Shown: piece after piece, positions 2,224 through 46,894 of the stretch
Layout: each line of letters opens with the position of its first letter
Position numbering within the stretch: position 1 is the stretch's first letter
Assembly (NCBI GenBank): GCA_958295735.1
Contig: OY282369.1
Location: forward strand, 2,766,983 to 2,830,982
Reading direction: 5' to 3'
DNA from: an uncultured Candidatus Cenarchaeum sp.
GTDB lineage: Archaea; Thermoproteota; Nitrososphaeria; Nitrososphaerales; Nitrosopumilaceae
Length of the DNA stretch: 64,000 bases
The notes under the pieces: model-generated
The model's database searches: none
What the model was told of the DNA's origin: nothing
Seen by the model: the letters and a program-made list of their open reading frames with translations, nothing else
Program-made: the position numbers and the translations under genes

Positions 2224-2273
2224 ACCCCGCCGGCCCCCCTCCCGCGAACCCCCCGTCCCAGTCGCGGATCGGC

Positions 2274-11800: not shown

Positions 11801-14800
11801 CCAACGGGACCATACTGGTCGACGTGCCCGCGGGCGCGGCGCGCGACGAGGCCGGGAACAACAGCACCGCGGCGGAACGGTTCTCGATAGAATACGATGC
11901 CAAGCCCCCGGTCCCGACGATCACGCCCGACGCGGGGCCGGGCCCGGCCCGCGAGTCGCCGATCAACTTCACGGTGAACTTTACCGAGCCCGTCGAGTTC
12001 ACGAGCACGGACGTCAAGATCTCGGGCGCCGCCTCCGGCATCGACGCGGGCAGCTTCGATCCCGTCAACCCCGCGACGTACGCGTTCCGCGTGTCGCCCC
12101 CGGCCGTCGGGACGATACTGGTCGACGTGCCCGCGGGCGCGGCGCTCGACGATGCGGGGAACGGCAATACCGCGGCGGAGCAGTTCTCCATACTGTACAC
12201 CGGCGCGCTCCCGGTCCCGACGATCGCGTCCGGCGCGGGGCCGGGGCCGGCCACCGAGTCGCCGATCGCCTTCACGGTCACGTTCAGCGAGGACGTCACC
12301 GGGTTCAACGCGACCGGCATCGCGATCTCGGGCTCGGCGAACCCCGGCAACGCGACCAACTTCGACAACGCCAGCGCCAGGACGTACACGTTCGACGTCG
12401 CGCCCTCGACCGTAGGCACCGTGCTGGTCGACGTTCCGGAAGGCGCGGCCGCGGATTCGGACGGCAACGGCAACGAGGCGGCGGAGCAGTTCTCCATACG
12501 ATACACCGGCGCGCTCCCGGTCCCGACGATCGCGTCCGGCGCGGGGCCGGGCCCGGCCACCGAGTCGCCGATCGCCTTCACGGTCACGTTCAGCAAGAAC
12601 GTCACCGGGTTCGACGCGACCGGCATCAAGATCTCGGGCGCCGCCTCCGGCATCGACGATGGCAGCTTCGATGCCGTCAACGCCACGACGTACACCTTTA
12701 CAGTCTCGCCCACGACCGACGGGACCGTGACGGTCGACGTCCCCGCGGGCGCGGCGGAGGATTCGGAGGACGGGACCGCCAGCGCGGCGGCGGCGCGGTT
12801 CTCCATACAATACGCCGCCGCCGCGCCCCCGGCCGCCGCCCCTGTCCCGACGATCGCGTCCGGCGCGGGGCCGGGCCCGGCCACCGAGTCGCCGATCGCC
12901 TTCACGGTCACGTTCAGCAAGAACGTCACCGGGTTCGACGCGACCGGCATCAAGATCTCGGGCGCCGCCTCCGGCATCGACGATGGCAGCTTCGTTCCCG
13001 TCAGCGCCACGACGTACACCTTTAGCGTCTCGCCCGCGGCCGACGGGACCGTGACGGTCGACGTCACCGCGGGCGCGGCAACGGGCGTGGCGGACGGGAC
13101 CGCCAGCGCGGCGGCGGCGCAATTCTCAATAACGTACGCCGCCGCCGCGCCCCCGGCCGCCGCCCCTGTCCCGACGATCGCGTCCGGCGCGGGGCCGGGC
13201 CCGGCCACCGAGTCGCCGATCGCCTTCACGGTCACGTTCAGCAAGAACGTCACCGGGTTCGACGCGACCGGCATCAAGATCTCGGGCGCCGCCTCCGGCA
13301 TCGACGATGGCAGCTTCGTTCCCGTCAGCGCCACGACGTACACCTTTAGCGTCTCGCCCGCGGCCGACGGGACCGTGACGGTCGACGTCACCGCGGGCGC
13401 GGCAACGGGCGTGGCGGACGGGACCGCCAGCGCGGCGGCGGCGCAATTCTCAATAACGTACGCCGCCGCCGCGCCCCCGGCCGCCGCCCCTGTCCCGACG
13501 ATCGCGTCCGGCGCGGGGCCGGGCCCGGCCACCGAGTCGCCGATCGCCTTCACGGTAACATTCGACAAGCCCGTCACCGGGTTCGACGCGACCGGCATCA
13601 AGATCTCGGGCGCCGCTACCGGCATCGACGATGGCAGCTTCGTTCCCGTCACCGCCACGACGTACACCTTTACAGTCTCGCCCCCGGCCGACGGGACCGT
13701 GACGGTCGACGTCCCCGCGGGCGCGGCAACGGGCGTGGCGGACGGGACCGCCAGCGCGGCGGCGGCGCAATTCTCAATAACGTACGCCGCCGCCGCGCCC
13801 CCGGCCGCCGCCCCTGTCCCGACGATCGCGTCCGGCGCGGGGCCGGGCCCGGCCACCGAGTCGCCGATCGCCTTCACGGTAACATTCGACAAGCCCGTCA
13901 CCGGGTTCAGCGCGACCGGCATCGAGATCTCGGGCGCCGCCTCCGGCATCGACGATGGCAGCTTCGTTCCCGTCAGCGCCACGACGTACACCTTTAGCGT
14001 CTCGCCCGCGGCCGACGGGACCGTGACGGTCGACGTCACCGCGGGCGCGGCAACGGGCGTGGCGGACGGGACCGCCAGCGCGGCGGCGGCGCAATTCTCA
14101 ATAACGTACGCCGCCGCCGCGCCCCCGGCCGCCGCCCCTGTCCCGACGATCGCGTCCGACGCGGGGCCGGGCCCGGCCACCGAGTCGCCGATCGCCTTCA
14201 CGGTAACATTCGACAAGCCCGTCACCGGGTTCAGCGCGACCGGCATCGAGATCTCGGGCGCCGCCTCCGGCATCGACGATGGCAGCTTCGTTGCCGTCAG
14301 CGCCACGACGTACACCTTTACAGTCTCGCCCCCGGCCGACGGGACCGTGACGGTCGACGTCCCCGCGGGCGCGGCGGAGGATTCGGAGGACGGGACCGCC
14401 AGCGCGGCGGCGGCGCAATTTTCCATACAATACGCCGGCGGCGCCCCCCCCTCCACACAACTCGTCGTCGAGTCGGCCGCGATCACCGGCCCCCAGAGCA
14501 TAACGATACGCTACGACGCGGACGCGGACGCCACCGGCTCGGCGTACCATTCGATCGTGGTAGGCGGAACGCCCCGGAGCGCCGCGCTGGCGGGCGCCGG
14601 CACCGACACCCACGTGCTACAGTTCGGCGGGGATGCCGCGGCGCGCGACGCTACCGGCAATATGGCCGTAAACCAGACGGCGGTGACCGATCCTGGGGGC
14701 AGGCCCCTCGGCAGCGACGCGGCGTACCGGCAGGCGCTGGCGGACGGCCAGGCCCCCGTGCTCGCATCCGCCGTGCTCGACCTGACGGCCGGGGAGAACG

Positions 14801-17346
14801 GCCTGCTCACCGTAACGTTCGACGAGGCGGTCGCGGCCGCGCCGGACGCGCCGCTGTCCGGGGAGATTGTGATACGGGGCGACGGCGGGGAGGTGGCGCT
14901 GTCCGGCAGCGACATTCCCTCCGTGGCATCGGGCCGCGCGGGGGGCGCGACGTTCGCGCTGGACGTGTCGGGCGCCAAGCGTATAGAGCTCAACGCGGCG
15001 GACCTGGGCCCCGCCGCCATGGAGCTGCCCGCCGCCTTCGTGTCGGACGCGCCGGGCAACGCGTACGCGCCGGGCCGGCAGCCCGTCCCGCTCGCGTACG
15101 TGCCGGATCCCTCGCCCCCGCGCCTCGTAAAGGCGGCCTTCAACCTGGCGCCGGCCGGCGGCAACGCGGGGCGGCTCGTTATAACGTTCGACGAGGCCGC
15201 GACCGCGCCCGGCGCGCAGTCGTTCCCCGGGACCGTCGAGATCCGCGGCCGGAGCTGGGGAGGCGACGCCGCGGTCTCCCTGTCCGCCGCCGATATACTG
15301 TCCGTCGAGTCCGGCCGCACCGGGGACAGGACCTTCGTGCTTCTCGTGTCCGGCGCGGCGCGGGCGGCGCTGGACGCGGCCGCGTTCTCGGATCTAGAGT
15401 CCACCACGCTGCTGCTGCCCGCCGGCTTCGTCACCAACGGCCGCGCGGCGCACGCGCCGGAGCGGGCGCCGCTGGACGTCGCGCGCGATCCCGGCGGCCC
15501 GTCCTTCCTGCTGGCATTCGTGCTGGACGGCAGCTCTGTGGCCGCCGTCTATTCGGAGCCGGTGCTTGCCGTCCCCTCCCACTACACGAACATCACGGTG
15601 GACGGCGCCGCGGCAGCGGGGAACGGCGGCGGCGCCTCCGAGGCCGCCGCGTACGGGAACAACGTGGTAGTGTCGTGGAACGCGGATGCGGGCGCCGCCG
15701 CCGCGGCCGGCTCCGCCGTGGGATTCGACCTGTCCGCGAACGTCACGGACGCCTTCGGGAACCCCGTCGAGAATCCCGGCTCAAAGTCCACCGGCGGGCC
15801 GGACGGGACCGGGCAGGCCGGCAAGCAGCCCGTGCAGGTGGGCGTGTTCGCGCGCGGCCCCGCCGACCCGTCGGCCGAGGCGGCGAGGCTGGGGGCCGCC
15901 GCCTTCAACGCCGTCTCGGCGGAGCGCGGCTACCAGTTCTACGTCAACGTGTCCGAGCACGATCTCCCGGCGGGCGCCTCCGGCGCGGCGGCGCTCCGCG
16001 GGGCGCACGCCGCCGGGGAAGGCCCCTCCCTGTACGTGGGCCCGGCCTCCGATATAGCGCTGGCCGGCATGGCCGGGTACGCCTCGGAGAACGGCATCAC
16101 CATAATATCGCACTCGTCGGCGGCGCGCCCGCTTGCCGTAGGGGGCGATCCCATATTCAGGATGGAGCCCGGCGCGGCGCACCTGGCCAGGGCCCTCGCG
16201 ACGGAGGTGGCGCGGGGCGGGTTCTCCGCGATCGTTCCAGTGGTGCAGGCCGGCCTGCGCGGCCCGGATTACGGCCTGCTGGAATCGCTGGAATCGGACC
16301 TGGGGCCGCTCGGGATACCCTTCGGCGAGCCCGTAGAGTTCGCTGCGGGCGGCGGCGGCGCGGCGGCCGCGCCCATAAGCGATGCCGTGGCGGCGGCCGC
16401 CGGGAGCGGGACGGCCAGGAGCGTGGCCGTCGTGTACGTGGGCTCGGACATGGAACTCGCGGCGATGGCCGGCAGCGTGCCGGCGGGCGGCCCCGTGCGG
16501 GAGAGGTCGGCATGGTTCGCCGCCGGCGGCGCGGGGGCCGGCGCGGGGAGCGGGGTGGCCGCGTCGCCCGCCATAACGGACGATGCGGCGGCCATGCAGC
16601 TGGCCCGCGATACGCGGCTGTCCGCCGTCCAGTTCGCCGTGGAGCGCAATAGTATGACGGACTACATCGACCGCATCGCGGCCCCGCGCGGCCCCGCCGC
16701 GTCGGCCACGCCGGCCTACGCCGCGTACGAGGCCGTCCGCGCGCTGGGCGGCGCCCTGGTGGGGGCCGGGGGCGACCCGTCCCTCGCGCGGGGCAACGTG
16801 GCGGGCGCGGCCAACTTGGAAGGCGGCCCGCTCGGCCGCACGGGCATGGACGGGAACGGCGACCTGCGGCTGCCCGTGACGTACGGAATATGGTCCGTGT
16901 CCGACGTATCGGCGGAGTGGGCGCGGGCCCCCGAGCTGCTCCGGGGCCTGGACGCGTGCGGGATAGACCTGGAAAAGTCGGCGCTCGCCCTCCCCGAGCT
17001 GTCCGCGGGGAGCACGAGCAGGCCGGCGCGGCAGACCGTGACGAACATAGGAACCGGCCCGATGCCCGCGGTGTCCGTGTCCGCCACGGACTGGGCGCAG
17101 TTCCTGAACGGCGTCCCCCTGCCGGGACCGCTGCCGTTCTCGTACACGGAGATGGCCGTGGGCCTGGACGGCGCCTCCCCCAGGCCGGCCGACTCTACCC
17201 CGCTGGCCGCGGGCACCGAGATACCTGGCGGGACGCCGCCGGGCGGCAGCGTGGACGTCGACTTCCGGATCAACCTGGGGGGGCTGGACGCGCTAGAGGC
17301 CGACATCATATCGCAGACCGTCACGTTCGTCGCCAACTGCTCCTAG
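2572..17346 (+). CDS. Giant secreted NHL-propeller/Ig-like/periplasmic-binding-like protein (paralog A)
   Basis: 4924 residues. Residues 1-43 form a signal peptide (basic RRR, hydrophobic core LIPLAAILAGC, end AHA-DG); LAGC also fits a lipobox. Five NHL beta-propellers of six YVAD-type blades lie at about 2863-3630, 4215-5005, 6480-7225, 7815-8585 and 9475-10265. Each interrupts an Ig-like domain: SPTN...F.E.V..SDI..SSG precedes it and Y.FDV...PAGRVQD.AGN follows. Plain Ig-like domains fill the gaps and run to about residue 3960. SwmB-like beta domains (3960-4415), a type-1 periplasmic-binding-protein-like domain (4420-4805, with VGPASDIALAGMAGY and IISHSSAARPLA) and a beta tail complete it. 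No transmembrane anchor is seen. I noticed cysteines only in the signal peptide, in DACG and two residues from the end. I chose ATG 2572 because GGGAGGGAG lies just upstream and MPLTRT begins the signal peptide. A surface or exported adhesin or ligand-binding role is inferred. Confidence 0.9.
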   Translation: MPLTRTPGRPGSRRRLPPAAALIPLAAILAGCAAAAAPHAHADGHLLAVEISNATASPTDLEAVPFTMNFSRAINSSTLDASDIRASSGKVQNLRAVLSHRGDFGGPGSGNGSLSDPTAVAVDAASGNVYVADGTSNRVHVFDPGGNFTGALPGGFNWPTGVAVNSSGSVHVVDYPPGRIAVFDSAHRSTANITRSGMDSPYAVAVDGSGNIYVLENTAEVLQIFNSSGVHVGFIARQFWDPRGVAVNASGYIYVANKEHDRVDIFNPAHGYAGALPGEFSKPEGVAVDIYTGTIYVADTGSNRVGMYDPAPAYIGDLPGSFSGPTGVAAGPSGEIYVADRGNRTIQAFRTVAYEFDVANPADRQTLTVEMQAGRVQDPAGNANGASNTASIYVSRTALVPAVSSAQQSPTNASTIGFAVEFTENVTGFNASRVMLSGTAGHAGVANFSGGGGSYSFTVSPTSDGTIRVDIPEGAALDAHGIPSAAAGRFLVEYDGTPPAPAVAPAQPGPTNLAAVPFNLTFSEPVNTTALEASDISASSGNVTNLRSVWPHGADIGSHGSGPDQLNTPHGVAVNASGHAYVADTLNHRVSVFDKTGHNVGHIGGPSTFTHPHDVAVGGPHGRVYVADTDNDRVRVFDSEWEHVHDINYTTPGNQFGIPSGVAVDSSGSVYVADRGTHRVYVFDRAWQYVRDVGDSYDQPNGIAVDSSGNAYVADSNEKRVRVYDAEGLPVVNITNSFDYPFAVDVDPAGNVFVADANNHRVQVFDSAWQPVTNLTRSFNVVTGVGVDPATGDVYASGRNNHRVTLFDAAHAEFDVAGPDDLRILTAWLPAGRVQDPAGNANGESNAASIRIDRTAPVPAINSTQPNPTGAPTIRFTVEFTEGVDGFGPGGVVLSGTADHAGVANFSGAGASYSFTVSPTANGTILVDIPEGAAEDDAGNGNEPAGRFSIEYDNSLLTPTVTAAQRSPTNAATINFTVDFSRPVTGFGAGGVMLSGTADHAGVEDFTGAGASYSFGVSPTSDGTILVDIPEGAAQDAGVDSIAAGRFSITYDSSLLIPTVEAAQRSPTNAATIGFTVDFNRPAAGFEAGDVMLSGTAGHTGVANFTGAGASYSFGVSPTSDGTILVDIPAGAARDAAANSTAAERFSIEYDGTGPIPTVTAAQSRVTRAPLIGFTVEFTENVTGFNASRVMLSGTANHTGVENFAGAGASYSFEVSPISDGTVRVDIPEGAARDEAGNGNAAAERFSIKYDGTRPAADVTAARDGPTNATTVGFRLAFSEGVNLGTLGAPDIEASSGDVRNLHSRLLPDGNIGGLSRPGGVAVNASGYLYVADRGGGGRVAIFDPDRRFVGTLTPPGQFSNPSGVTIDGSGSVYVADTYNNRIRIYDSALQHDRDVGHGFNRPHDVAVDGASGNIYVADTFADRVQVFDSNWTHITNMWGFHDPHAVAFDGSGNIYVADMKNNRVQVFNSTRHYNDTISTAKWPRGVAVDPLGTVYVVSTSRTQVQIFDTARKHVATTDNDFRDPYNLAVDGPSGAVYVADWNNNRIRAFNTTFAFEVADPLDGQNLTVSLPAGRVQDRAGNANLESGAAGIRIDRTAPAPNVTSAQRSPTGAAAIGFAVEFTENVTGFNASRVILSGTANHTGVEDFAGAGASYSFEVHPASDGTVRVDIPEGAARDGAGNGNAAAEWFYVRYDGTAPVPAFAAALDGPTNLTAVPFNLTFGEPVDATTLEASDINASSGNVTNLRSVWPHGADFGANGPGDGQLDQPHGVAVDAGGRVYVADRSNHRVSAFDRAGNHLGHVGGPFLRPEDVAAGGPHGRVYVADTGNHTVRVYDAAWRHVHDIRNSFVNPSGVAVDSSGNAYVAVRLNHSVQVFDDEGRHVRDVGGPYDQPNGIAVDSSGRVYVADSNNNTVRVYDAEGRPVVNITNSFAYPFAVDVDPAGNVFVADAFNSRVAVFDSAWQHVADLTHPYDPLLTVTGVAVDPATGAAYASGRDNHRVSLFDAAYAFDVANPDDLRTLEVRMPAGRVQDAAGNPNAASDAAGIRIDRTGPAPNVTSAQRSPTGAATIPFAVEFTENVTGFGAGGVILSGTANHAGAENFAGAGASYSFHASPTSDGTILVDVPAGAARDEAGNNSTAAERFLMEYDGTPPVPTVASAQRSPTGAATIPFAVEFTENVTGFGAGGVILSGTADHAGVEDFAGAGASYSFAVSPISDGTVLVDIPAGAARDEAGNNSTAAERFYVRYDGTAPVPAFAAALDGPTNLTAVPFNLTFGEPVNATTLEASDINASSGNVTNLRSVWPHGADFGASGPGDGQLDEPHGVAVDAGGRVYVADAGNGRVSVFDKAGNHLGHIGHLGGAGDLSSPLDVAAGGPYGRVYVADAGNGSVRVYDAAWRHVHDIRNSFNAPSGVAVDSSGNAYVAVRLNHSVQMFDREWRHVRDVGGQYDQPNGVAVDSSGTVYVADSGNNRTRVYDAAGLHVGDIENSFDYPFAVDVGPAGNVYVADTGNGRVQAFDPGWRPAANLTHPDDPLLTVTGVAVDPATGAAYASGRDNHRVSLFDAPRAEFDVMNPADGQELAVGLPAGIVRDAAGNANEESNTASIRIDRTAPAPNVTSAHPDPTGAPAIRFTVEFGESVTGFGAGDVALSGNATHGGVENFTGGGGSYSFWVSPTASGTILVDVPAGAAEDDAGNGNAPAERFSIGYDSSLLTPTVTAEQDSPTNAATISFRVDFTRPVGGFDAGDVILSGTAKHGGVEDFTNSSAAAYGFGVSPASDGTILVDIPEGAARDAADASISSTAAGRFSIEYDGTAPAPTVTAAQRSPTNESPIAFTVNFTEPVRGFGAGGVAISGAASGIDAGSFVRANSTTYRFAVSPAEDGTIRVDIPAGAARDDAGNGNEAAEPFSIRYDGTPPIPVIGSARTSPTNHAPINFTVNFGEGVDGFAAADVELAGAAPVPGSFAPVNSTAYAFHAAPSANGTILVDIPEGAARDEAGNYNTAAERFSMRYDGKAPAPVINSTHPDPTNSSPINFTVNFGEGVDGFEAAAVELAGAAPVQGSFAPIDATTYAFHAAPSANGTILVDVPAGAARDEAGNNSTAAERFSIEYDAKPPVPTITPDAGPGPARESPINFTVNFTEPVEFTSTDVKISGAASGIDAGSFDPVNPATYAFRVSPPAVGTILVDVPAGAALDDAGNGNTAAEQFSILYTGALPVPTIASGAGPGPATESPIAFTVTFSEDVTGFNATGIAISGSANPGNATNFDNASARTYTFDVAPSTVGTVLVDVPEGAAADSDGNGNEAAEQFSIRYTGALPVPTIASGAGPGPATESPIAFTVTFSKNVTGFDATGIKISGAASGIDDGSFDAVNATTYTFTVSPTTDGTVTVDVPAGAAEDSEDGTASAAAARFSIQYAAAAPPAAAPVPTIASGAGPGPATESPIAFTVTFSKNVTGFDATGIKISGAASGIDDGSFVPVSATTYTFSVSPAADGTVTVDVTAGAATGVADGTASAAAAQFSITYAAAAPPAAAPVPTIASGAGPGPATESPIAFTVTFSKNVTGFDATGIKISGAASGIDDGSFVPVSATTYTFSVSPAADGTVTVDVTAGAATGVADGTASAAAAQFSITYAAAAPPAAAPVPTIASGAGPGPATESPIAFTVTFDKPVTGFDATGIKISGAATGIDDGSFVPVTATTYTFTVSPPADGTVTVDVPAGAATGVADGTASAAAAQFSITYAAAAPPAAAPVPTIASGAGPGPATESPIAFTVTFDKPVTGFSATGIEISGAASGIDDGSFVPVSATTYTFSVSPAADGTVTVDVTAGAATGVADGTASAAAAQFSITYAAAAPPAAAPVPTIASDAGPGPATESPIAFTVTFDKPVTGFSATGIEISGAASGIDDGSFVAVSATTYTFTVSPPADGTVTVDVPAGAAEDSEDGTASAAAAQFSIQYAGGAPPSTQLVVESAAITGPQSITIRYDADADATGSAYHSIVVGGTPRSAALAGAGTDTHVLQFGGDAAARDATGNMAVNQTAVTDPGGRPLGSDAAYRQALADGQAPVLASAVLDLTAGENGLLTVTFDEAVAAAPDAPLSGEIVIRGDGGEVALSGSDIPSVASGRAGGATFALDVSGAKRIELNAADLGPAAMELPAAFVSDAPGNAYAPGRQPVPLAYVPDPSPPRLVKAAFNLAPAGGNAGRLVITFDEAATAPGAQSFPGTVEIRGRSWGGDAAVSLSAADILSVESGRTGDRTFVLLVSGAARAALDAAAFSDLESTTLLLPAGFVTNGRAAHAPERAPLDVARDPGGPSFLLAFVLDGSSVAAVYSEPVLAVPSHYTNITVDGAAAAGNGGGASEAAAYGNNVVVSWNADAGAAAAAGSAVGFDLSANVTDAFGNPVENPGSKSTGGPDGTGQAGKQPVQVGVFARGPADPSAEAARLGAAAFNAVSAERGYQFYVNVSEHDLPAGASGAAALRGAHAAGEGPSLYVGPASDIALAGMAGYASENGITIISHSSAARPLAVGGDPIFRMEPGAAHLARALATEVARGGFSAIVPVVQAGLRGPDYGLLESLESDLGPLGIPFGEPVEFAAGGGGAAAAPISDAVAAAAGSGTARSVAVVYVGSDMELAAMAGSVPAGGPVRERSAWFAAGGAGAGAGSGVAASPAITDDAAAMQLARDTRLSAVQFAVERNSMTDYIDRIAAPRGPAASATPAYAAYEAVRALGGALVGAGGDPSLARGNVAGAANLEGGPLGRTGMDGNGDLRLPVTYGIWSVSDVSAEWARAPELLRGLDACGIDLEKSALALPELSAGSTSRPARQTVTNIGTGPMPAVSVSATDWAQFLNGVPLPGPLPFSYTEMAVGLDGASPRPADSTPLAAGTEIPGGTPPGGSVDVDFRINLGGLDALEADIISQTVTFVANCS
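12811..14430 (+). repeat. 324-bp tandem repeats inside gene A
   Basis: Five nearly identical 324-bp units, with boundaries near 12815, 13139, 13463, 13787 and 14111. Each encodes one 108-residue Ig-like domain plus an AAAAPPAAAPVP linker. Some neighbouring units differ at only a few bases, which implies recent unequal recombination or conversion. The number of domains is therefore likely to vary between strains. Confidence 0.9.
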
Positions 17347-17830: not shown

Positions 17831-17838
17831 TTTAAATA
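17831..17838 (+). promoter_or_regulatory. TATA box of the small gene now cut off by IS66
   Basis: The octamer tttaaata. If the IS66 element and one target copy are removed, the GTG of the small gene (now at 20000) falls 29 nt downstream, the same spacing as at the giant genes. The element has inserted between promoter and start codon. Confidence 0.75.
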
Positions 17839-17856: not shown

Positions 17857-19988
17857 GTACACACTTACCTCCCCCCCCCCTCCCGCCGCGACTTGGCCGC
17901 CCGGGCGGGCCCGCGCGCCGCGCAAGCTTAGGCTGGCCTAAGGGTCGATTTGTATAATTGTGGCGAGTTTGGGCCTGCCGGCATGGCGGAATCCGGGGTG
18001 GCGCTGCTGCGCAAGGAACTGGCGGCCGCGTTGGAAAAGATCGCCGGGCTGGAAGCCGAGGCCGCGGAGCGGGCGGCCGAGATCGCGATGCTGAAGGCCA
18101 AGTCCACGGAGCAGGCGCTGCTGCGCAAGGAACTTGCGGCCTCGCTCGAAAAGATCGCCGGGCTGGAAGCCGAGGCCGCGGAGCGGGCGGCCGAGATCGC
18201 GATGCTGAAGGCCAAGTCCACGGAGCAGGCGCTGCTGCGCAAGGAACTGGCGGCCGCGTTGGAAAAGATCGCCGGGCTGGAAGCCGAGAACTCCGGGCTG
18301 AAGGCCAAGGCCGCCGAGCAGGCGGTCAGGCTTGCCGTGTGCGACGGCCCGAACGCGCCCTCGTCGTCCCTCACCACGTACGGCCCCCGGCGGAACGCCT
18401 GGCGCAAGGAGCGGGGCTACAAGGGGAGCGACGGGGCCGGATCCGACGGCAAGCCCGCTCCGGACGGCGGCGCCCCGCGCAAGATGGGCCCGCCCCAAGG
18501 GCACAAGGGCGTCTCGCACTGCAACAAGCCCGAGTTCACCATGAAGTGCGGGATCCTGACGTGCCCCGTGTGCTGCGGCCCCCTGGAGAAGTTCGACAGG
18601 TGGCGAAAGCTGGTCAACGACTTCGATCAGTTCTGGCGCGTGGTCACCGCGATGATCGAGGTGGAGACGGGCTGGTGCGGCAAGTGCGAGAAGTACTACG
18701 AGGCCCAGGCGCCGTTTCCGAAGGGCACCTCGTGCGGCCCGAGGGCGCTCGGCCTCATAATGGCGCTGTTCGAGATGGGCTGCACGGACGCGAGGATCGC
18801 CGGCTTTATCGAGTCCACGTTCTACTTCCGCATCTCGGAGGCGGCCGTGGCGAAGGCCAGGAGGGCCATGGCGGGCGCGTCGAAGAAGCAGCTGGAGGAG
18901 ATCAAGTGGGCGTTCAGCGAGAGCATGTTCGTGCACATGGACGAGACCGGGTTCAAGATCGGCGTGCTGGGCAAGACCGGCTACGTCTGGGTGGCCGTCG
19001 TGGGCAACGCCGTGTGGGTGCACTTCGCGCCCACCCGGGGGGCGGCGGTCCTGAGGGAGCACTTCGGCTGGCTGTCCCGCAGGGCGGTGGTGGCCGACGG
19101 GCTGCCGGCGTACCGCGCGTGGTTCCAGCATCTGCAGAGATGCTGCAGGCACCTGCTCGCCAAGGGCGAGGCCGTCGCCGTGGACGGCGACCCGGGGGAC
19201 GAGGCGAGGCACGACTGGATGCAGGGGTACTACCACAAGATACACGGCATCAAGACGCTGGCGCCGTTCACCGTGACGTACCTGGCCAAGGAGTTCCACG
19301 ACGCCGTGTCGGCGTACCCCGACGGCAAGCTGAAGACGCACCTCGCCAACGCCGAGCCGCACGTGCTCACGTTCATGGGATTCCGCGGCATGCCGCCCCA
19401 CAACAACCCCGCCGAGCTCGCCATACGCGACCTCATAGTGACGCAGCGCAACGCGCACCACAAGATCTCCACGCCGGAGGGGCGCAAGACGTTCTCCGAG
19501 CTGGTCACGATCGGGGGCACCGCCCGCATGAACGGCATGTTCCCGGGCAGGGCCTTCACCGAGATCGCCCGCAATCGCGACTGGAAAATGTTCGACCCCG
19601 GCCCGTGGGCCGGGCCCGACTGGTGCGTCTTCGATGACCCCGCATCCGGGCTGGTGCGCCCGCCCGGCTCCGCGGCGGGGCGGGCGCCGGCTCCGGCAGC
19701 GGCGTCCGCCTGACCGGCCCCAGCGGATCTGCCGGGCGCGCGCGGGCGGCGTCAGCCCGCGTCAGGCATCGGGACGGAGCGCCGTACCGGGGCGGCCGCG
19801 CGCCGAAAATGCCCCGAACCCTGCCGCGATCGCGCGGCGCGCGCCGATCGGGGCAGGCCGGGCGCGCGGGGGGCGGCGCCCGCCCGCCGAAGGATCCCCG
19901 CTCCGGCCGCGATCGCGCGGCGCGCGCCGATCGGGGCAGCCCGGGCGCGCGGGGGGCGCCGGGAGGGGGGGGGGAGGTAAGTGTGTAC
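17857..19988 (+). mobile_element. IS66-family insertion sequence, complete
   Basis: 2132 bp between perfect inverted repeats of about 28 bp at 17857-17884 and 19961-19988. The repeats begin gtacacacttacc and contain a run of ten C (or G on the other end). They are flanked by the 8-bp duplication gcggcacg. The element carries only a tnpC-type transposase, with no tnpA or tnpB, like the single-gene subgroup of the family. Repeats, duplication and catalytic triad are all intact, so this looks like the youngest element in the window. Confidence 0.93.
17983..19713 (+). CDS. IS66-family transposase (TnpC type)
   Basis: 576 residues from ATG 17983; a TTG at 17950 would add 11. Residues 5-110 hold three near-identical copies of an ALLRKELAA...KIAGLEAE block, a coiled coil of the kind that precedes IS66 transposase domains. 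A zinc-finger-like segment follows, with CPVCC and WCGKC. The DDE catalytic residues are present: Asp about 320 in HMDETG, Asp about 372 in VVADGLPAY and Glu about 478 in NNPAELAIRD. It catalyses movement of its own element. A TATA-like tgtataat lies about 30 nt before the ATG. The N-terminal repeats are also 120-bp DNA repeats (17999-18300), a sign of recent expansion. Confidence 0.93.
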   Translation: MAESGVALLRKELAAALEKIAGLEAEAAERAAEIAMLKAKSTEQALLRKELAASLEKIAGLEAEAAERAAEIAMLKAKSTEQALLRKELAAALEKIAGLEAENSGLKAKAAEQAVRLAVCDGPNAPSSSLTTYGPRRNAWRKERGYKGSDGAGSDGKPAPDGGAPRKMGPPQGHKGVSHCNKPEFTMKCGILTCPVCCGPLEKFDRWRKLVNDFDQFWRVVTAMIEVETGWCGKCEKYYEAQAPFPKGTSCGPRALGLIMALFEMGCTDARIAGFIESTFYFRISEAAVAKARRAMAGASKKQLEEIKWAFSESMFVHMDETGFKIGVLGKTGYVWVAVVGNAVWVHFAPTRGAAVLREHFGWLSRRAVVADGLPAYRAWFQHLQRCCRHLLAKGEAVAVDGDPGDEARHDWMQGYYHKIHGIKTLAPFTVTYLAKEFHDAVSAYPDGKLKTHLANAEPHVLTFMGFRGMPPHNNPAELAIRDLIVTQRNAHHKISTPEGRKTFSELVTIGGTARMNGMFPGRAFTEIARNRDWKMFDPGPWAGPDWCVFDDPASGLVRPPGSAAGRAPAPAAASA

Positions 19989-19999: not shown

Positions 20000-20329
20000 G
20001 TGGACGAGTCGTCGCTGGACGAGAACTACAAGGTGCTGATAATCTGGAAGTTCCAGCAGTACTTGGACGAGACTCCGGGGATGATCACCGACAGGGTGGA
20101 CACCGCGATGGGGGCCGTGGCGTACGACTTTGCAAAGTGGAGCTGCATTCCGGAGGGGACCACGCGCGCCGTCCTGCGCGACTATACCAGGAACCCGCAA
20201 AAGTACCGGGACGCGCTGGAAAGGAACGAGGGCGGAAGAATCGTCGCCCCGAAGGGCGGGACGTACAAGCTGGGCGACCTCACGGCAGCCATGAACAAGC
20301 TTACGCGCGCGACGAGCGGGAGCGGCTGA
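20000..20329 (+). CDS. Small hypothetical protein (intact copy 1), promoter displaced by IS66
   Basis: 109 residues from GTG 20000, starting DESSLDENYK. I do not recognise the family. It is soluble, mixed charged/aromatic and probably helical (IIWKFQQYLDETPG, YDFAKWSCIPEG, AVLRDYTRNPQKYRDAL), with a C-terminal KLGDL..AMNKLTR segment. The start is chosen because it lies 29 nt after the TATA box once the IS66 insertion is removed. The insertion leaves the gene without its native promoter, so it may be silent or driven from inside the element. Two decayed copies follow at 22235 and 22764. Its lower GC content and preserved W, Y, F and K codons suggest this copy was under selection until recently. 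Confidence 0.7.
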   Translation: MDESSLDENYKVLIIWKFQQYLDETPGMITDRVDTAMGAVAYDFAKWSCIPEGTTRAVLRDYTRNPQKYRDALERNEGGRIVAPKGGTYKLGDLTAAMNKLTRATSGSG

Positions 20330-20412: not shown

Positions 20413-20746
20413 GGCCCAGTAGATCCTAGGTGTAGATTTTGAGCGCGTCCCCTGCGCGGCCCCGGCACCTTGCACGCGCCCGCCCTCCCCCCCGTCCCGC
20501 TGCCCGCCGCGCCTCCCGACGGCCGCAGCCGGCCCGCGCGCCGACCGATCGGGCCGGATTCGCGTTTTTTCTCGCGCGCGCCCGCGCCCCTCCCGTCCGC
20601 CGCCCCGGCGCCGGACGCGGACGGGCGCCGCCCCGGCGCGCCCGGCAGGTCCCGCCGCCGGCAGCCGTGGCCGGGGCCCGCGGCCGCCCCGTCCCGGAGC
20701 CGCGCCGATTATTCGGATGCGTCCCGCGCGCCGCCCGCGCCGCGCG

Positions 20747-22022
20747 CTATTTTCCGCGATCGCCGACGGACGATCCCGGGGCTTCCACGATGCGCCCCGC
20801 GAACTGGTCCGTGGCGATCTTCTCGCCGCCGCGTCCCGACACGGAATCGGCGAACCTGGCAATCCTCCACGGGTCGTACGAGAGGAGCGGCACGAGGAAG
20901 AGCAGCAGCCGCAGGACGATCGAGTTGCTGGTCGTCTTTCCCATGATGCCCCCGGCCGCCCTGATCGCCGTCTCGATCCCCCACCGCTTGCGGTATTCCT
21001 CGGGTATCGACCAGATCGCCTCGGCTTCCCCGATCGACACGTTGGTGGCGAACGCGACGTACTTCGACACCACGTCGCCGTCGCCGTCGCCGCCCTCCTT
21101 GCCATCGACTGCGGCTTTTTTCAGCATGACCGGGGCGAACGCCGCGCTCCTGCCGGCGGCGTTGAGCATCGTGTATGCCGAGGCCCGCGGCAGCCTTCCC
21201 TCGCGGTGCTCCCTTGTGCGGCGCTTGATCCCAACTCGCCCGGCGTCGCGTTGAGGCCGGACAGGGTTCCCTCGCGGTGCTCCCTTGTGCGGCGCTTGAT
21301 CCTCTCGTTTTTGGGCACCGGCGTGATCCAGTTGCGCCCCCCCTTCCCGGCAAAGGGCATGCAGTCCGCGTTGAAGAACCCGCGGTCCGCCAGCAGGCGC
21401 TTCGGCATCACCCCGTGCCTAGCGGCGGACGCCAGCATGCTGCGCGTGCAGCCGGCCAGCTTGTCGCCGCCCGGAAACTGCCTTGCCGCGAGCATGATGT
21501 TGGCATCGCCGATCCCGCGCAGCAGCGCGTGCGAGGCGGCCGCGGGCGTCCCCGCGCGCGGGCGCGACTTCCCGGCGTATTCCTTGAGGCCTTGCCGCAG
21601 TGCGAGTTGTCGGTGGCGTCTGTGGCGCACGCGTCTGTGCCTTTCGCCATCCCGGACTGGATCGCGACCTGCCCGGTTTGCTTCAGCTCCTCCCCGAAGA
21701 ACTTGACCGCGTCGTCCTTGTCCGCGGCGCGCGTGACCGACCGGGTGAGATCGGGGTGCGGGACGCGCTTCGCCTTCCGCCCGCCGGGCCCGTGCCCGCC
21801 CCCGGCGACCTCGTTCTCGCGCCTCGTCCTTTTCGTGGCGGACTCGACGGTCGTGTTGTCGTGCCCCGCCCTTGCCGCCGCGAGCGCGCAGCCGGGCGGC
21901 CCGCGCGCCGCGTTGCGCTTCTTCCCCGTCCCGATGCCCAGCCTCTTGTACGGCCCGCACGCGGCCTTCGGCGCGCGGGGATCGTCCTGCCGGCGCGCGG
22001 GTGTGCCGTTTGGCCTCGCCAT
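20747..22022 (-). pseudogene. IS4-like transposase, multiply frameshifted
   Basis: The gene starts at 22022 (MARPNGTPARRQ), about 29 nt after a TATA-like ctatatag on the minus strand. The reading frame then breaks near 21600 and again around 21200. The pieces keep the expected landmarks: ATDATDNSHCG (first Asp), RLLADRGFFN (second Asp) and YRKRWGIE with a following IRGK-like IMGKTTSN (Glu of the Y-R-E motif). A hydrophobic IVLRLLLFLVPLLSYDPWRI ends the conserved part. A 36-bp duplication at 21196-21302 contributes to the second break. It cannot give a full-length enzyme as it stands. Confidence 0.8.
21196..21302. repeat. 36-bp duplication within the dead IS4-like transposase
   Basis: The segment ttccctcgcggtgctccctt and the 16 bases after it occur at 21196-21231 and again at 21267-21302, 71 bp apart. 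71 is not a multiple of three, so the duplication shifts the transposase frame. Confidence 0.85.
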
Positions 22023-22234
22023 CGCGAAAATCATAATACTTGACTATATAGATCTTTGCATAGTAGCGCCCGGGCCGCGCCCAAAACCTACGCTTGGGAT
22101 CTACTGGGCCGGGAGCGCGTCTTGTCCGGCGGCCGCGCCCCCGCGGCGGGCGGTTTTTCGCGCCCGGAACCGCGGTTATGGGACGGACTGGCACGAACGG
22201 GCCGCTTTGAACGCCGCCGCGGCGCGGCACGCGC

Positions 22235-22564
22235 GCGGGCGAGTCGCCCCCGGGCGAGATCGACGAGGCGCTGATAATCCGTAAGTTCGAGGAGTACTTG
22301 GACGAGACTCCGGGGACGATCACCGACAGGCCGGGCACCGCGATGGGGGCCGCGGCGCGCGACTCTGCAAAGCGGAGCTGCATTCCGGAGGGGACCGCGC
22401 GCGCCGTCCTGCGCGACTATGCCAGGAGCCCGCAAAAGTGCCGGGGCGCGCCGAAAAGGCGCGGGGGCGGAAGGATCGCCGCCCCGAAGGGCGGGACGCG
22501 CGGGGCGGGCGACCCCGCGGCCGACACGGGCGGGCCCGCGCGCGCGGCGGGCGGGAGCGGCTGA
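22235..22564 (+). pseudogene. Small hypothetical gene, decayed copy 2
   Basis: Colinear with the gene at 20000-20329 and same length with no indel, so the frame is still open. The start codon GTG has become GCG (22235) and the TATA box is lost. A TTG at 22298 is the first alternative start. Nearly all substitutions replace A or T by G or C: by hand alignment of the last 295 bases I count about 40 such changes, 3 in the opposite direction and about 5 neutral. The C-terminal KLGDL..AMNKL region has become Gly/Ala/Pro-rich. Confidence 0.8.
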
Positions 22565-22763: not shown

Positions 22764-23085
22764 GCGGGCGAGTCGCCCCCGGGCGAGATCGACGAGGTGC
22801 TGGCGGTCCGGGAGTTCGACGAGTTCCCGGACGACGCGCCGGAGATGATCGCCGGCAGGCCGGACGCCGTGACGGGGGCCGCGGCGCGCGACTCTGCAAA
22901 GCGGCGTGGGATTCCGCGGAGGACCGCGCGCGCCGTCCCGCGCGACTGTGCGGGGAACCCGAAAGTGCCGGGGCGCGCCGAAAATGAACGGGGGCGGAAG
23001 GATCGCCGCCCCGGAGGGCGGGGCGCGCGGGGCGGGCGACCCCGCGGCCGACACGGGCGGGCCCGCGCGCGCGGGGCGCGGGGCG
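22764..23085 (+). pseudogene. Small hypothetical gene, decayed copy 3
   Basis: Same unit as copy 2 but further decayed. The start is GCG, the frame is shifted by loss of a base near 22963 (ccgcaaaagt in copy 2 is ccgaaagt here), and the end dissolves into G/C-only sequence. Still recognisable are DEVLAVREF, ARDSAKR and the TARAVPRDCAGN region. Confidence 0.75.
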
Positions 23086-26117: not shown

Positions 26118-27974
26118 TCACGGGCGTGAAAACGCCTTCGCTGATCCGGATTCACGCCTGAGGGGCGGGGGTTGCTGACCACATGCGGGCGCCCGGCGCC
26201 CGTGCACGCTTACCTCCCCCCCTCCCGCCGCCCGCCGTGCCTTACGGGCGCCCCGATCCGGTACGTCCCGGGTGCAGATTCTGGGCGCGGGCCCGCGCCG
26301 CCCGCGGCATACGCGGCAGATGGGCCCGCCGCGCGTCAGTCCCCGGCCGGCGCGCCCGGCGGATGCCGGCTTCGCCGCCGCGGCAAGCGGGGGCGCCGCG
26401 CGGGAGCCGGATCGGCTTTTGCGCGGGGCGGCGGGGCGCGGGGCGGCGGGGGGCGCCACAAAAAAGGGGGGCGCGGCGGGCTGCGGGCGGGAGGGGGCGC
26501 GGCCGGCGCATCTCGAATTCCAACGGCCTGGCGGGCTCTGGATCCTTGAGCGCCGCCCGGCGCTGCCCGTCCCCGCCCGCGGCGAACGATCCCGGGGCCT
26601 CCGCGATGCCCCCGACGGGCACCGGGATCTGCCGGATCGGGGTGCCGCTTGTCGGCCGCCGGCGCCGCGGGAACCGATCCGTTCACCCGGCAAATCCCTG
26701 CCGTTTTGGCGCCAGGCCCGGCACGAAACGGGGGTCATCTTCAACCTCGGAAGTGTGCACAGCCGCGTCATGTAGTTTATCTCATAACTATCCCGGACGG
26801 CGCCGGTACTCCGCTCCTCCCCCCTCCCCTCCCCCCTTCCTCCTCCCGAGTCCCCCCATCCGATCCCCCCCGAGGCCATGCCGACCAGCCTGTTGTAGGG
26901 GGCCACCTTGGGGCCGACCTCCCGGACTATGTTCTTCCACTCCGGGGCGCGCGCGCCGCTCCCGAACAGGCGCTTGACGGCCGAAAAGACGACCTCGGCC
27001 GCCCGGCGCCGGCCGCACCTGCCGGCCGCCTTCCTCGCCCCCGTGCCGGCCGCCTTTTCCGCGGCGGCCAGGTCCGAGACGCACTTGGTGCCGAAGCCCG
27101 GCCGCTCCCGCACCGCACCGCCCCGCCCGTCGCCCCCGCCCTTGCCGGCCGTGGCGGCGTTCTTGCCCGTCTTGATGAACGGGACGATCCCGAGCTCCCT
27201 GCACGTGGCGACGTTCTTGCGCGACGCGTGCGCGCCGTCGGCGCAGGTGGCCTTCTCCGCCCCCTCCGCGGCCGCCGCGGCCGCGGCGGCAGGGACCGAC
27301 GCCTCCGGCTCCCGCTCGCGGGCCGTCCCGCCGTCGTCGGCGGCGACCGCGCGCGCCGCGGCCGCTTCCTCGGAGGCGGGGCGCGCGGCCTCGGCCGCGG
27401 CCGCCGCGGCCGCCTCTTCCTTCTCCCCTTCCGCCTCCGCCTGCGCCTCCTTGCCCCGCGCCTCGCCGCGCGCCGCGGCCCCGTCAGGGGCCGCGGCCGC
27501 CTCGGTGACGGGCGTCTCGAATACGGGCGCGCCGCCGGTCTTCTCGTCGGTCACCTTCAGCGCCAGGACGCGGCGCGCGTCCACGTCCATCTGCACGTGC
27601 GCCCCCGCGAACCCGCGCTTCAGCTTCCACTTCTTCGTCATCCGCTCCCCGCGGTCGTTCCGCCGCAGGCCTGACGAGTCGGCGGCCGCCCGCGCGGCGC
27701 GCTTGCTGCCCGGCGCGATGGCCGTCCCCCCGCGGATGTCCGCCTTTGTCCCGTTGATCCTCCTGCATGTATGGGCGCGCCTCGGCGTGCCGTCGTCGCC
27801 CGGCGCCTGCCTGGCCGGGCCCTCCGGGGCCCCGCGCGGCGCGCCGGTCATGCGCCTCGCGGCCGCCAGGGCCAGGAACACGGGCTCGGCGTACCGGTAC
27901 GGGGCCCCGGCCTCCTTCCGGTTCACCTTCTCGAGCTCCTCGCCCCCGTTCGGATCCCCCTGCGGGACGAGCAT
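26118..27974 (-). CDS. IS5-family transposase with Ala/Glu-rich insert, reads out of the element
   Basis: The frame starts MLVPQGDPNGGEELEK at 27974. It contains GAPYRYAEPVFLALAAARRM, the first catalytic Asp in ADSSGL, KKWKLKRGF, the second Asp in CADGAHASRKN, and a Glu before FSAVKRLFG. Between KVTDEKTGG and CADGAH lies a block of about 90 residues made mostly of Ala, Glu and Gly. Typical relatives, as I know them, have a much shorter segment there. The frame has no stop inside the element. It leaves through the terminal repeat (SYEIN) and continues about 215 codons into flanking DNA, ending at 26118. The DDE residues remain, but activity with insert and tail is doubtful. Confidence 0.75.
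   Translation of the reverse strand: MLVPQGDPNGGEELEKVNRKEAGAPYRYAEPVFLALAAARRMTGAPRGAPEGPARQAPGDDGTPRRAHTCRRINGTKADIRGGTAIAPGSKRAARAAADSSGLRRNDRGERMTKKWKLKRGFAGAHVQMDVDARRVLALKVTDEKTGGAPVFETPVTEAAAAPDGAAARGEARGKEAQAEAEGEKEEAAAAAAAEAARPASEEAAAARAVAADDGGTAREREPEASVPAAAAAAAAEGAEKATCADGAHASRKNVATCRELGIVPFIKTGKNAATAGKGGGDGRGGAVRERPGFGTKCVSDLAAAEKAAGTGARKAAGRCGRRRAAEVVFSAVKRLFGSGARAPEWKNIVREVGPKVAPYNRLVGMASGGIGWGDSGGGRGEGRGEERSTGAVRDSYEINYMTRLCTLPRLKMTPVSCRAWRQNGRDLPGERIGSRGAGGRQAAPRSGRSRCPSGASRRPRDRSPRAGTGSAGRRSRIQSPPGRWNSRCAGRAPSRPQPAAPPFFVAPPAAPRPAAPRKSRSGSRAAPPLAAAAKPASAGRAGRGLTRGGPICRVCRGRRGPAPRICTRDVPDRGARKARRAAGGGEVSVHGRRAPACGQQPPPLRRESGSAKAFSRP
26202..26230. repeat. Isolated IS66-end-like sequence
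   Basis: gtgcacgcttacctcccccc and the following cctcccgcc closely match the terminal repeat of the IS66 element at 17857, with an 8-C run instead of 10. No transposase is attached, so this is a remnant or a short derivative end. Confidence 0.6.
26250..26400. repeat. 150-bp intergenic repeat, first copy
   Basis: About 150 bp (cgatccggtacgtcccgggt... to ...agcgggggcgccgcg) recurs at 30030-30180, so the same non-coding block lies outside the left IS5-like element and inside the pair. No coding signal is seen. Confidence 0.75.
26630..26772 (+). pseudogene. Remnant of a giant-gene upstream region cut by IS5-like element
   Basis: This segment matches the DNA just before giant gene C (46720-46865): gccgccggcgccgcgggaac, then a ttttggcgcc-like stretch, then cgcgtcatg. 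At the point where C continues into its TATA box tttatctacc, this copy runs into the end of the IS5-like element. It implies that a further giant gene, or at least its promoter, once stood here. Confidence 0.65.
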
Positions 27975-28522: not shown

Positions 28523-30007
28523 ATGAAGATAAAATTCAGGCGCATCACAGAGGCGGCGCGCAGGCAGGACATCGACTCGATATTCGCGGGATTTGGCTGG
28601 ATCATGTCGGAGCTGAAGCAGACCGACCACAAGACGAGGTACTGCTGCACCGTAAAGCTGGTCACGGTGCTCGAGCAATTCCTGAGGCACGTCGTCGAGA
28701 CGCAACTCAAGACGGGAAAGGTGTCCCCCGACGAACTCGTGGACGGCGAACTGCCGGGTCCCGAACGGCGCAACGGGGCCACGCTGGAGCGGCATATTGC
28801 CTTTTCCCTGAATTTCCAGAGCGTCGACTCCATAAAAAACATCCTGAACGAGATCGGCGAGCCGGGCGCGTTCGACCGCTGCCTGAGCGAGCCGCGCCGG
28901 GAAACGCTCAAGACCCTGTTAGACCACAGGCACGAGACGGTCCACACGTACGTGGCACTGCCGCCGATCGAGATCAACCGGTGCTTCGGGGTCGTCTTCG
29001 CGTTCATGAATTGCATCATGCTCGAGATCCCCTCCAGCAGCCGCCATTTCTACACGCACGTGGGGGACGGCCTGTTTCAATCGCGCGAGTACCCGGAGGC
29101 GATCGCGTATTACGACAAGTCGCTCGCCGCGCGGAGGGACGAGCCGTACGCGCTGGCCAGAAAGGGGGAGTCGCTCGCGGAGCTGGGGCGGCACGGGGAG
29201 GCGGTGGAGTGCTACGACCGGGCCCCGGATCCGGACGACTCCGCGCTGGCCAGAAAGGGGGAGTCGCTCGCGGAGCTGGGGCGGCACGGGGAGGCGGTGG
29301 AGTGCTACGACCGGGCCCTGGCCCGGAATCCGGACTACCCGTACGCGCTGGCCAGGAAGGGGGAGTCGCTCGCGGGGCTGAAACGATTCGAGGAGGCGGC
29401 AGAGTGCTGCGACCGGGCCCTGGCCCGGAATCCGGACTACCCGTACGCGCTAGTCGGGAAGGGAGCATCGCTCGCGGGGCTGGGGCGGCACGGGGAGGCG
29501 ATGGGGTGCTGCGACCGGGCCCTGGCCCTGGATCCGGGCTACTCCCGCGCGCATGTCAAGAAAGGAGAATCGCTCGCGGGGCTGGGGCGGCACGGGGAGG
29601 CGGTCGCGCACTACGGCAGACGGCTGGGCGCCGTTCCGGGCGACTCGTACGCGCTTGCCAGAAATGTAAAGTCGCTCGCGGAGCTGAAACGATTCGAGGA
29701 GGCGGCAGAGTGCTGCGACCGGGCCCTGGCCCTGGATCCGGGCTACTCCCGCGCGCATGTCATGAAAGGAGAATCGCTTGCTGGACTGGGGCGGCACGGG
29801 GAGGCGATGGGGTGCTACGACCGGGCCCTGGCCCTGGATCCTGGCGACTCTTACGCGCATGCCAAGAAAGGAGAATCGCTCGCGGAACTGGGGCGGCACG
29901 AGGAGGCGATCATACACTACGACGAGCTGCTGGGCGCCGTTCCGGGCGACCCGTACGCGCTAGCCAGGAAGGAAAAGTCGCTCGCGGAACTGGAGCGGCT
30001 CGGATAG
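28523..30007 (+). CDS. HEPN-like domain fused to TPR repeats
   Basis: 494 residues. Residues 1-170 are an all-helical domain whose segment LLDHRHETVHTYV contains Arg136-x4-His141. This is the R-x4-6-H arrangement of HEPN ribonuclease domains. Residues about 180-490 are roughly nine tetratricopeptide repeats of 34 residues (ALARKGESLAELGRHGEAVE type). They are so alike that they are also near-identical 102-bp DNA repeats, so recent expansion is likely. TPRs would bind a protein or peptide partner. A HEPN-TPR protein could act in RNA-targeting defence or stress, or the TPRs in host interaction; both are inference. The start is supported by the TATA spacing. The gene lies between two inverted IS5-like elements. 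The HEPN assignment rests on one motif and helical character; the TPR assignment is certain. Confidence 0.8.
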   Translation: MKIKFRRITEAARRQDIDSIFAGFGWIMSELKQTDHKTRYCCTVKLVTVLEQFLRHVVETQLKTGKVSPDELVDGELPGPERRNGATLERHIAFSLNFQSVDSIKNILNEIGEPGAFDRCLSEPRRETLKTLLDHRHETVHTYVALPPIEINRCFGVVFAFMNCIMLEIPSSSRHFYTHVGDGLFQSREYPEAIAYYDKSLAARRDEPYALARKGESLAELGRHGEAVECYDRAPDPDDSALARKGESLAELGRHGEAVECYDRALARNPDYPYALARKGESLAGLKRFEEAAECCDRALARNPDYPYALVGKGASLAGLGRHGEAMGCCDRALALDPGYSRAHVKKGESLAGLGRHGEAVAHYGRRLGAVPGDSYALARNVKSLAELKRFEEAAECCDRALALDPGYSRAHVMKGESLAGLGRHGEAMGCYDRALALDPGDSYAHAKKGESLAELGRHEEAIIHYDELLGAVPGDPYALARKEKSLAELERLG

Positions 30008-30387: not shown

Positions 30388-31748
30388 TAGTCCATCTCAT
30401 AATCACGCCTGAAACCCGATCCAGTTCGAGATAATGATCGCGAACGGGCGACTTTTGTTGACAACACGGGCCAAAAACCCGTCAGGCCATACCATGGCGC
30501 GGCAGAATCCAAGTGCGCGGCGCGCGGCAGGATGCTCGTCCCGCAGGGGGATCCGAACGGGGGCGAGGAGCTCGAGAAGGTGAACCGGAAGGAGGCCGGG
30601 GCCCCGTACCGGTACGCCGAGCCCGTGTTCCTGGCCCTGGCGGCCGCGAGGCGCATGACCGGCGCGCCGCGCGGGGCCCCGGAGGGCCTGGCCCGGCAGG
30701 CGCTGGGCGACGACGGCACGCCGAGGCGCGCCCATACATGCAGGAGGATCAACGGGACAAAGGCGGACATCCGCGGGGGGATGGCCATCGCGTCGAGCGG
30801 CAAGCGCGCCGTGCGGACGGCCGCCGACTCGTCAGGCCTGCGGCGGAACGACCGCGGGGAGCGGATGACGAAGAAGTGGAAGCTGAAGCGCGGGTTCGTG
30901 AGGGCGCACGTGCAGATGGACGTGGACGCGCGCCGCGTCCTGGCGCTGAAGGTGACCGACGAGAAGACCGGCGGCGCGCCCGTATTCGAGACGCCCGTCA
31001 CCGAGGCGGTCGCGGCCCCTGACGGGGCCGCGGCGCGCGGCGAGGCGCGGGGCAAGGAGGCGCAGGCGGAGGCGGAGGCGGAAGAGAGAGAAGAGGCGGC
31101 CGCGGCGGCCGCGGCCGAGGCCGCGCGCCCCGCCTCCGAGGAAGCGGCCGCGGCGCGCGCGGTCGCCGCCGACGACGGCGGGACGGCCCGCGAGCGGGAG
31201 CCGGAGGCGTCGGTCCCTGCCGCCGCGGCCGCGGCGGCCGCGGAGGGGGCGGAGAAGGCCACCTGCGCCGACGGCGCGCACGCGTCGCGCAAGAACGTCG
31301 CCACGTGCAGGGAGCTCGGGGATCGTCCCGTTCATCAAGACGGGCAAGAACGCCGCCACGGCCGGCAAGGGCGGGGGCGACGGGCGGGGCGGGGCGGTGC
31401 GGTGCGGGAGCGGCCGGGCTTCGGCACCAAGTGCGTCTCGGACCTGGCCGCCGCGGAAAAGGCGGCCGGCACGGGGGCGCGGAGGGCGGCCGGCAGGTGC
31501 GGCCGGCGCCGGGCGGCCGAGGTCGTCTTTTCGGCCGTCAAGCGCCTGTTCGGGAGCGGCGCGCGCGCCCTGAAGTGGAAGAACATAGTCCGGGAGGTCG
31601 GCCCCAAGGTGGCCCCCTACAACAGGCTGGTCGGCATGGCCTCGGGGGGGGGGGGGATCGGATGGGGGGACTCGGGAGGAGGAAGGGGGGAGGGGAGGGG
31701 GGAGGAGCGGAGTACCGGCGCCGTCCGGGATAGTTATGAGATAGACTA
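30388..31748 (+). mobile_element. IS5-like insertion sequence, copy 2
   Basis: 1361 bp, the inverted partner of copy 1. Ends are tagtccatctcataatcacg and gatagttatgagatagacta. Together with copy 1 it encloses 2.27 kb holding the 49-aa ORF and the HEPN-TPR gene, a composite-transposon-like layout. Confidence 0.8.
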
Positions 31749-31891: not shown

Positions 31892-32092
31892 ATGCCAACG
31901 GAGCTTGGCGGCCCGGCGGTTGCGGGCGCAGGGGCGCGGAACGCGGAGGCGCCCATGCCAACGGAGCTGGGCGGCCCGGCGGCGCCTGCATGCGGGCGGG
32001 AGCGGCAGGGCGCGATCCCCCGCGGGATGCGGCGCCTGGCCGGGGCGGGGGGGGGGGGGGGCGGAGGACGGCCGGGGCGCACGCGCCGCTGA
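31892..32092 (+). CDS. Leader reading frame before giant gene B
   Basis: 66 codons starting MPTELGGPAVAGAGARN. The block MPTELGGPA occurs twice, 63 nt apart, so a second ATG at 31955 is in frame. The frame crosses the 15-G tract (as Gly) and stops at the TGA embedded in the ccgctgacg that encodes the PLT of the giant protein. The first ATG is 29 nt from the TATA box and is therefore the expected first codon of a leaderless mRNA. Either the leader joins the giant frame when the G tract changes by +1 or -2, or its translation is coupled to the overlapping giant frame. Confidence 0.55.
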   Translation: MPTELGGPAVAGAGARNAEAPMPTELGGPAAPACGRERQGAIPRGMRRLAGAGGGGGGGRPGRTRR

Positions 32093-46865: not shown

Positions 46866-46873
46866 TTTATCTA
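46866..46873 (+). promoter_or_regulatory. TATA box of giant gene C
   Basis: tttatcta followed by ccggcggggcgccgggcgcg, 29 nt before the leader ATG 46895. Confidence 0.85.
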
Positions 46874-46894
46874 CCGGCGGGGCGCCGGGCGCGC

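Follow-up and report, generated by a model that had tools for sequence, protein, structure and literature searches.

In which direction does DNA drift in this archaeal genome once selection no longer holds it? The question is raised by a small decayed gene in the window (the whole 64,000-nucleotide stretch analysed here, positions 2766983-2830982 of one 3,166,131-bp contig), whose differences from a nearby copy with an open frame run mostly from A/T to G/C (W>S; the reverse is S>W). High GC content is usually ascribed to selection or to biased conversion. A sequence-only reading of the locus had proposed a GC-biased mutation process or GC-biased gene conversion in this lineage. A GC-directed neutral process in the window's lineage is, in our judgement, highly probable, as dead sequence gains G/C at independent loci and intact copies are unbiased.

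Three paralog copies and the polarity of their differences

Three related copies lie on the plus strand. Copy 1 (20000-20329) keeps an open 109-aa frame with a GTG start; copy 2 (22235-22564) is a decayed paralog that retains its stop codon (22562-22564); copy 3 (22764-23080, the 3' limit being approximate) is a further decayed tandem copy with a 2-base deletion. The upstream flanks of copies 2 and 3 are almost identical. All three copies are members of a family of some 20 small proteins, confined to the window's genome among the 21 genomes searched; Pfam gave no match for copy 1 or for one other family member. In most members, an ATG or GTG is preceded by TTTAAATA. As the sequence-only reading had recognised, copy 2 has lost both start codon and TATA box: GCG stands where copy 1 has GTG, and the TATA position (22206-22213, plus strand) reads TTTGAACG where other members have TTTAAATA. 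With start and promoter gone and changes extending beyond silent sites, copy 2 is a pseudogene. The description of copy 1 as intact needs correction, however. Its former TATA box (17831-17838, plus strand) now lies about 2.1 kb upstream, split from the start by an IS66-family element (17857-19988, plus strand; transposase 17950-19713), which is assigned by its IS66 transposase domain (PF03050) and an 8-bp target duplication, GCGGCACG. Seventeen more copies of this element, likewise full-length, were recovered at identities of 99.0-99.95%. The insertion is recent, and because the element separates the TATA box from the gene, copy 1, though its frame is open, has been promoterless ever since and is itself recently silenced; it is not an intact expressed gene. 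The near-identical IS66 copies were set aside as a record of recent mutation, as their singletons, 10 in all with 7 falling in a single copy (L127), are too few. That copy (2396850-2399060) also has rearranged internal repeats.

Aligning copy 1 (20000-20326) with copy 2 (22235-22561) gives 327 sites, no indels and 55 differences, divided into 46 W>S, 3 S>W and 6 neutral (binomial p = 7e-11 for 46:3). The earlier tally of about 40, 3 and about 5 without an indel was right in direction and in the lack of indels; its coordinates were off by one (20036 pairs with 22271). Transitions make up 43 of the 55 differences (24 A>G, 19 T>C), and the codon positions 1, 2 and 3 hold 22, 28 and 5 differences, respectively. 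Third positions are already G/C, which leaves mostly nonsynonymous changes; those at positions 1 and 2 are not the silent changes of a constrained gene and resemble those of unconstrained sequence. Copy 3 had been missed, and the changes in copy 2 are not all independent. Copies 2 and 3 agree against copy 1 at 47 sites, copies 1 and 2 against copy 3 at 41, and copies 1 and 3 against copy 2 at 7; both ends of copy 2 are copy-3-like and its centre is copy-1-like. We read copy 2 as a mosaic from conversion between the tandem copies, to which parallel W>S changes at the same sites may add. Copies 2 and 3 have probably undergone conversion, which would have spread identical changes between them; differences common to the two are put down to conversion and so count once, not as independent copy 2 mutations.

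Polarity was assigned by outgroup parsimony, the outgroup being the nearest paralog or the paralog majority. This check, which the sequence-only reading had suggested, places 27-28 W>S and 2-3 S>W changes on the copy-2 side (27:2, p = 1.6e-6), but it also leaves 12-16 of the raw differences on the copy-1 side as S>W, with 0-1 W>S. Under the strictest outgroup rule, the counts are 22:2 for copy 2 and 6:1 for copy 1. Parallel W>S in the outgroups may account for part of the copy-1-side S>W. As a measure of copy 2's bias the raw 46:3 is too high, and about 27:2 stands; decay nearly all toward G/C describes copy 2's own changes, but roughly one raw difference in three is not clearly derived in that copy.

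Dead insertion sequences across the genome

Between copies 1 and 2, on the minus strand, lies a decayed DDE-type insertion sequence (IS; 20417-22106) among the PF01609 relatives, with terminal inverted repeats CAGTAGATCC...GGATCTACTG. This transposon is unrelated to the paralog family and has five intact and several dead copies. Majority polarisation among three dead copies of it was abandoned as unsafe, because parallel W>S changes in two copies mimic S>W in the third. When only sites at which all five intact copies agree are counted, three dead copies that were not picked for bias (d2732, d2330 and d2892) show W>S/S>W of 97/18, 62/16 and 65/14, with per-site ratios of 16-25 for transitions and 0.8-2.2 for transversions. 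The A:T>G:C changes in d2732 affect 36 of 152 W sites at codon position 1 and 44 of 189 at position 2, and its third positions show one G:C>A:T in 358 S sites. Comparisons between intact copies are balanced (36/39 and similar), as is d2753, a copy with a long open frame (21/21); one intact branch carries 16 S>W vs 1 W>S. A decayed rve-type IS copy in the window (1175-2225, minus strand) differs from a copy with an open transposase frame by 104 W>S and 19 S>W, which separate into 98/11 for transitions and 6/8 for transversions.

A comparison of pseudogenes with functional counterparts across sampled stretches of the genome, along lines also suggested earlier, bore out the direction. It took six transposase genes, all of which Pfam matches to a transposase or integrase, and the 26 IS pairs from them that were 300 bases or longer. 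In the 23 disrupted pairs, transitions number 1172 W>S vs 381 S>W, a per-site ratio of 6.3 (bootstrap 3.8-10.0); for transversions the counts are 178 vs 197 and the ratio is 1.9 (1.5-2.3), where about 2.1 is balance at such composition. Automatically pairing every predicted gene to disrupted homologues showed no W>S excess in the undisrupted pairs (1158 vs 1254), but this gene-wide pairing mixed in queries that were themselves decayed, and the analysis was narrowed to the six transposase genes. Ten strongly biased relics had 868 of 2637 A/T sites changed vs 107 of 5578 G/C sites, a 17-fold difference that is an inflated upper figure, as these relics were chosen for W>S exceeding 2.5 times S>W; the unselected figure is 6.3. 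Over the 26 pairs, bias showed no significant correlation with the number of disruptions per kb (rho 0.21, p 0.30), and several lightly disrupted IS copies show no bias; these may have been under selection until recently. Near-identical active IS copies differ by few variants, whose bias is weak, and the sample from the congener genome (2,045,086 bp) yielded too few pairs of dead and intact copies for a parallel comparison.

Base composition, sequence context and strand

Sampled 20-kb stretches of the window's genome, from which the genome-level analyses were drawn, range from 60% to 76% GC vs 52% to 61% in the congener; other family members lie at 29%-38%, plus one at 58%. Coding GC at positions 1, 2 and 3 is.665/.539/.898 in the window's genome and.596/.445/.724 in the congener, all coding and noncoding values being approximate as the gene calls come from our own simple codon model. 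Noncoding 100-bp blocks of the window's genome have a mode of.80-.85 and a mean of.715, the mean lying under the mode because some stretches are low in GC. A GC-directed process fits this third-position GC of 0.90 and noncoding mode of 0.80-0.85, vs 0.72 and a noncoding mean of 0.535 in the congener. Three stretches (L041, L038 and L035) have 34-55% GC within the GC-rich genome and are perhaps recent imports that have not yet shifted. The window itself also contains three giant open frames of 4613-4924 aa (2572-17346, 31990-46293 and 46546-60387) with DNA cross-matches of 65-86%, the first carrying NHL-like VYVAD repeats, and an inverted 1.2-kb duplicate of 97% identity (26773-27974 and 30532-31748) on either side of a TPR-repeat gene (28523-30007).

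In the ten bias-chosen relics, A:T>G:C is commonest after C or T (5'-YA) and before C or G, and rarest in AAA and GAT, with changed fractions of.63 in CAC and.51 in TAG vs.06 in AAA and.10 in GAT. Noncoding blocks of at least 75% GC, which were not chosen by substitutions, are depleted in CA and TA (observed/expected.67 and.66) and enriched in AA and AT (2.44 and 2.64); noncoding DNA of the congener has no such pattern. GC-rich noncoding DNA thus carries a residue matching the context-dependent A:T>G:C change. Strand asymmetry was not seen: A>G affects 378 of 1153 sites and T>C 490 of 1506, the two being close at nearly every locus (replichores were not mapped).

Origin of the bias and known systems

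The repair-gene inventory, proposed earlier as a route to the cause, did not single out a gene. MutS and NucS were looked for in the window's genome without a match, and EndoV was found neither there nor in the congener; yet relatives at 29-38% GC are likewise without MutS, mostly without NucS, and in several cases without EndoV, so the missing MutS, NucS and EndoV do not explain the bias. A single lost repair gene was therefore rejected as the cause: among NucS, EndoV, UDG, HhH-GPD, MutS, PolB exonuclease and PolD small subunit, no absence tracks GC. Two UDGs are present, as are AlkA-like and AAG-like glycosylases (identified by eye), and the PolB exonuclease and PolD small-subunit motifs are intact. 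PolB (L188) carries some 25 additional residues toward its C terminus, absent from the aligned relatives. An OGG1-like 8-oxoguanine glycosylase occurs in the congener (L167, G001:C1:1656717-1657118), and a counterpart was not found in the window's genome. Genes of the dCMP-deaminase family number 13 in the window's genome (one beside PolB and 12 others, at L048:11754-13442 and 11 further places) vs 0-2 per relative, the sole relative with two being the other GC-rich family member; the one inspected appears to combine a P-loop with a deaminase, like anti-phage dCTP deaminases. The twelve extra genes were not adopted as a cause, because action on dCTP should favour G:C>A:T.

We lean towards mutation over conversion because the excess is confined to transitions and depends on context, and put a mutational origin at slightly better than even. 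The part of the original proposal that named a GC-directed process has been replicated at independent dead IS copies; between mutation and conversion, which it left side by side, the evidence gives no more than this lean. Under a mutational origin, the excess would chiefly reflect a per-site rate of A:T to G:C above that of the reverse change; MutS and NucS, which could correct such errors, were not found. Selection in working genes would keep A/T sites, and after gene death such sequence would move to about 90% GC; copy 2 would be one such dead gene in a genome whose unconstrained DNA drifts to G/C. Tentatively, and with somewhat less confidence, this may be a natural archaeal lineage with strongly GC-directed mutation, in which strand-symmetric, context-specific A:T>G:C change causes the GC enrichment of a Cenarchaeum-like archaeon and departs from the AT-biased rule.

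Biased gene conversion would need no GC bias in mutation, only a preference for G/C when mismatches are corrected as copies or cells exchange sequence. The tracts of copy 2 resembling copies 1 and 3 show that such exchange occurs, the strand symmetry is consistent with it, and variants among young active IS copies are less biased than old relics. In its general form, conversion should raise W>S among transversions too, but these are balanced (178 vs 197) next to transitions at 1172 vs 381; this comparison is weakened by the missing OGG1, whose loss would raise G:C>T:A and could mask a general conversion bias in transversions. A variant in which G.T mismatches alone are corrected would raise transitions alone. 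The tenfold range among contexts is unexpected from conversion by itself, noncoding DNA is generally GC-rich with the same residue, and the abundance of IS copies and relics suggests that the effective population is small, which would make conversion bias weak; we therefore regard conversion as the main source as rather unlikely. The bias would be illusory if the reference copies had turned A/T-richer and the dead ones retained ancestral G/C, as the differences assigned to copy 1 and the single intact IS branch with 16 S>W would allow. However, the bias persists in d2732, d2330 and d2892 at sites where five intact copies agree, and copy-2-derived changes still stand at about 27:2, which leaves such a polarity error very improbable.

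Two special cases of mutation bias bear on the source of the changes. Polymerase G.T mispairs that persist without mismatch repair would yield A:T>G:C, which agrees with the unmatched MutS and NucS and with NucS-null spectra in Streptomyces (PMC11109965) and M. smegmatis (PMC8228993). Against this, A>G equals T>C at each relic vs about 3:1 by strand in the Streptomyces mutant, relatives without the same genes are low in GC, and the polymerase motifs are intact, so that uncorrected replication errors are an unlikely source. An ammonia oxidiser makes nitrite and NO, both of which deaminate bases, and hypoxanthine from adenine deamination pairs with C, again giving A:T>G:C. The symmetric, context-dependent changes would suit this route, as would the missing EndoV beside two UDGs able to mend deaminated cytosine; yet the AlkA-like and AAG-like glycosylases can remove hypoxanthine, and several 29-38% GC relatives are also without EndoV, which makes deamination more doubtful still.

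Dead transposons drifting to G/C provide many independent records against the AT-biased direction. Mutation is reported as AT-biased in bacteria (PMC2936535) and in two haloarchaea (PMC9997560); in the present genome unselected change runs the opposite way. GC-biased gene conversion in bacteria (PMC4450053) predicts a W>S excess and inter-copy exchange, both seen here, but in general form it should also affect transversions, which are balanced here. NucS/EndoMS-deficient mutators offer another comparison. In Streptomyces without NucS, transitions reach 97% and A:T>G:C accounts for 59% of substitutions, with about 3:1 strand asymmetry (PMC11109965), and M. smegmatis shifts similarly on NucS loss (PMC8228993). 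The likeness lies in a transition-shifted spectrum with A:T>G:C over G:C>A:T, and NucS was not found here either; those mutators reach about 4-fold per site (our arithmetic from their counts and a 72% GC genome) with 3:1 asymmetry, whereas the present genome reaches about 6-fold, strand symmetrically, in natural relics.

Our searches of the open-licence literature turned up no description of pseudogenes decaying toward G/C in the sponge thaumarchaea. The unexplained GC rise of sponge-associated archaea becomes testable by spectrum, context and strand, which opens a direct way to ask why some of these sponge dwellers became GC-rich. In one survey, 7 of 11 sponge thaumarchaeal symbionts have 47-67% GC and most free-living ones 32.5-34.2% (PMC7848895), and a later paper leaves the GC pattern of sponge-associated Thaumarchaeota for further work (PMC9289680). 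The present archaeon belongs to the same family, and to the same genus as the presumed C. symbiosum; those reports, in the parts available, give composition and no direction of neutral change, whereas the dead genes and transposons of the present genome record the direction itself.
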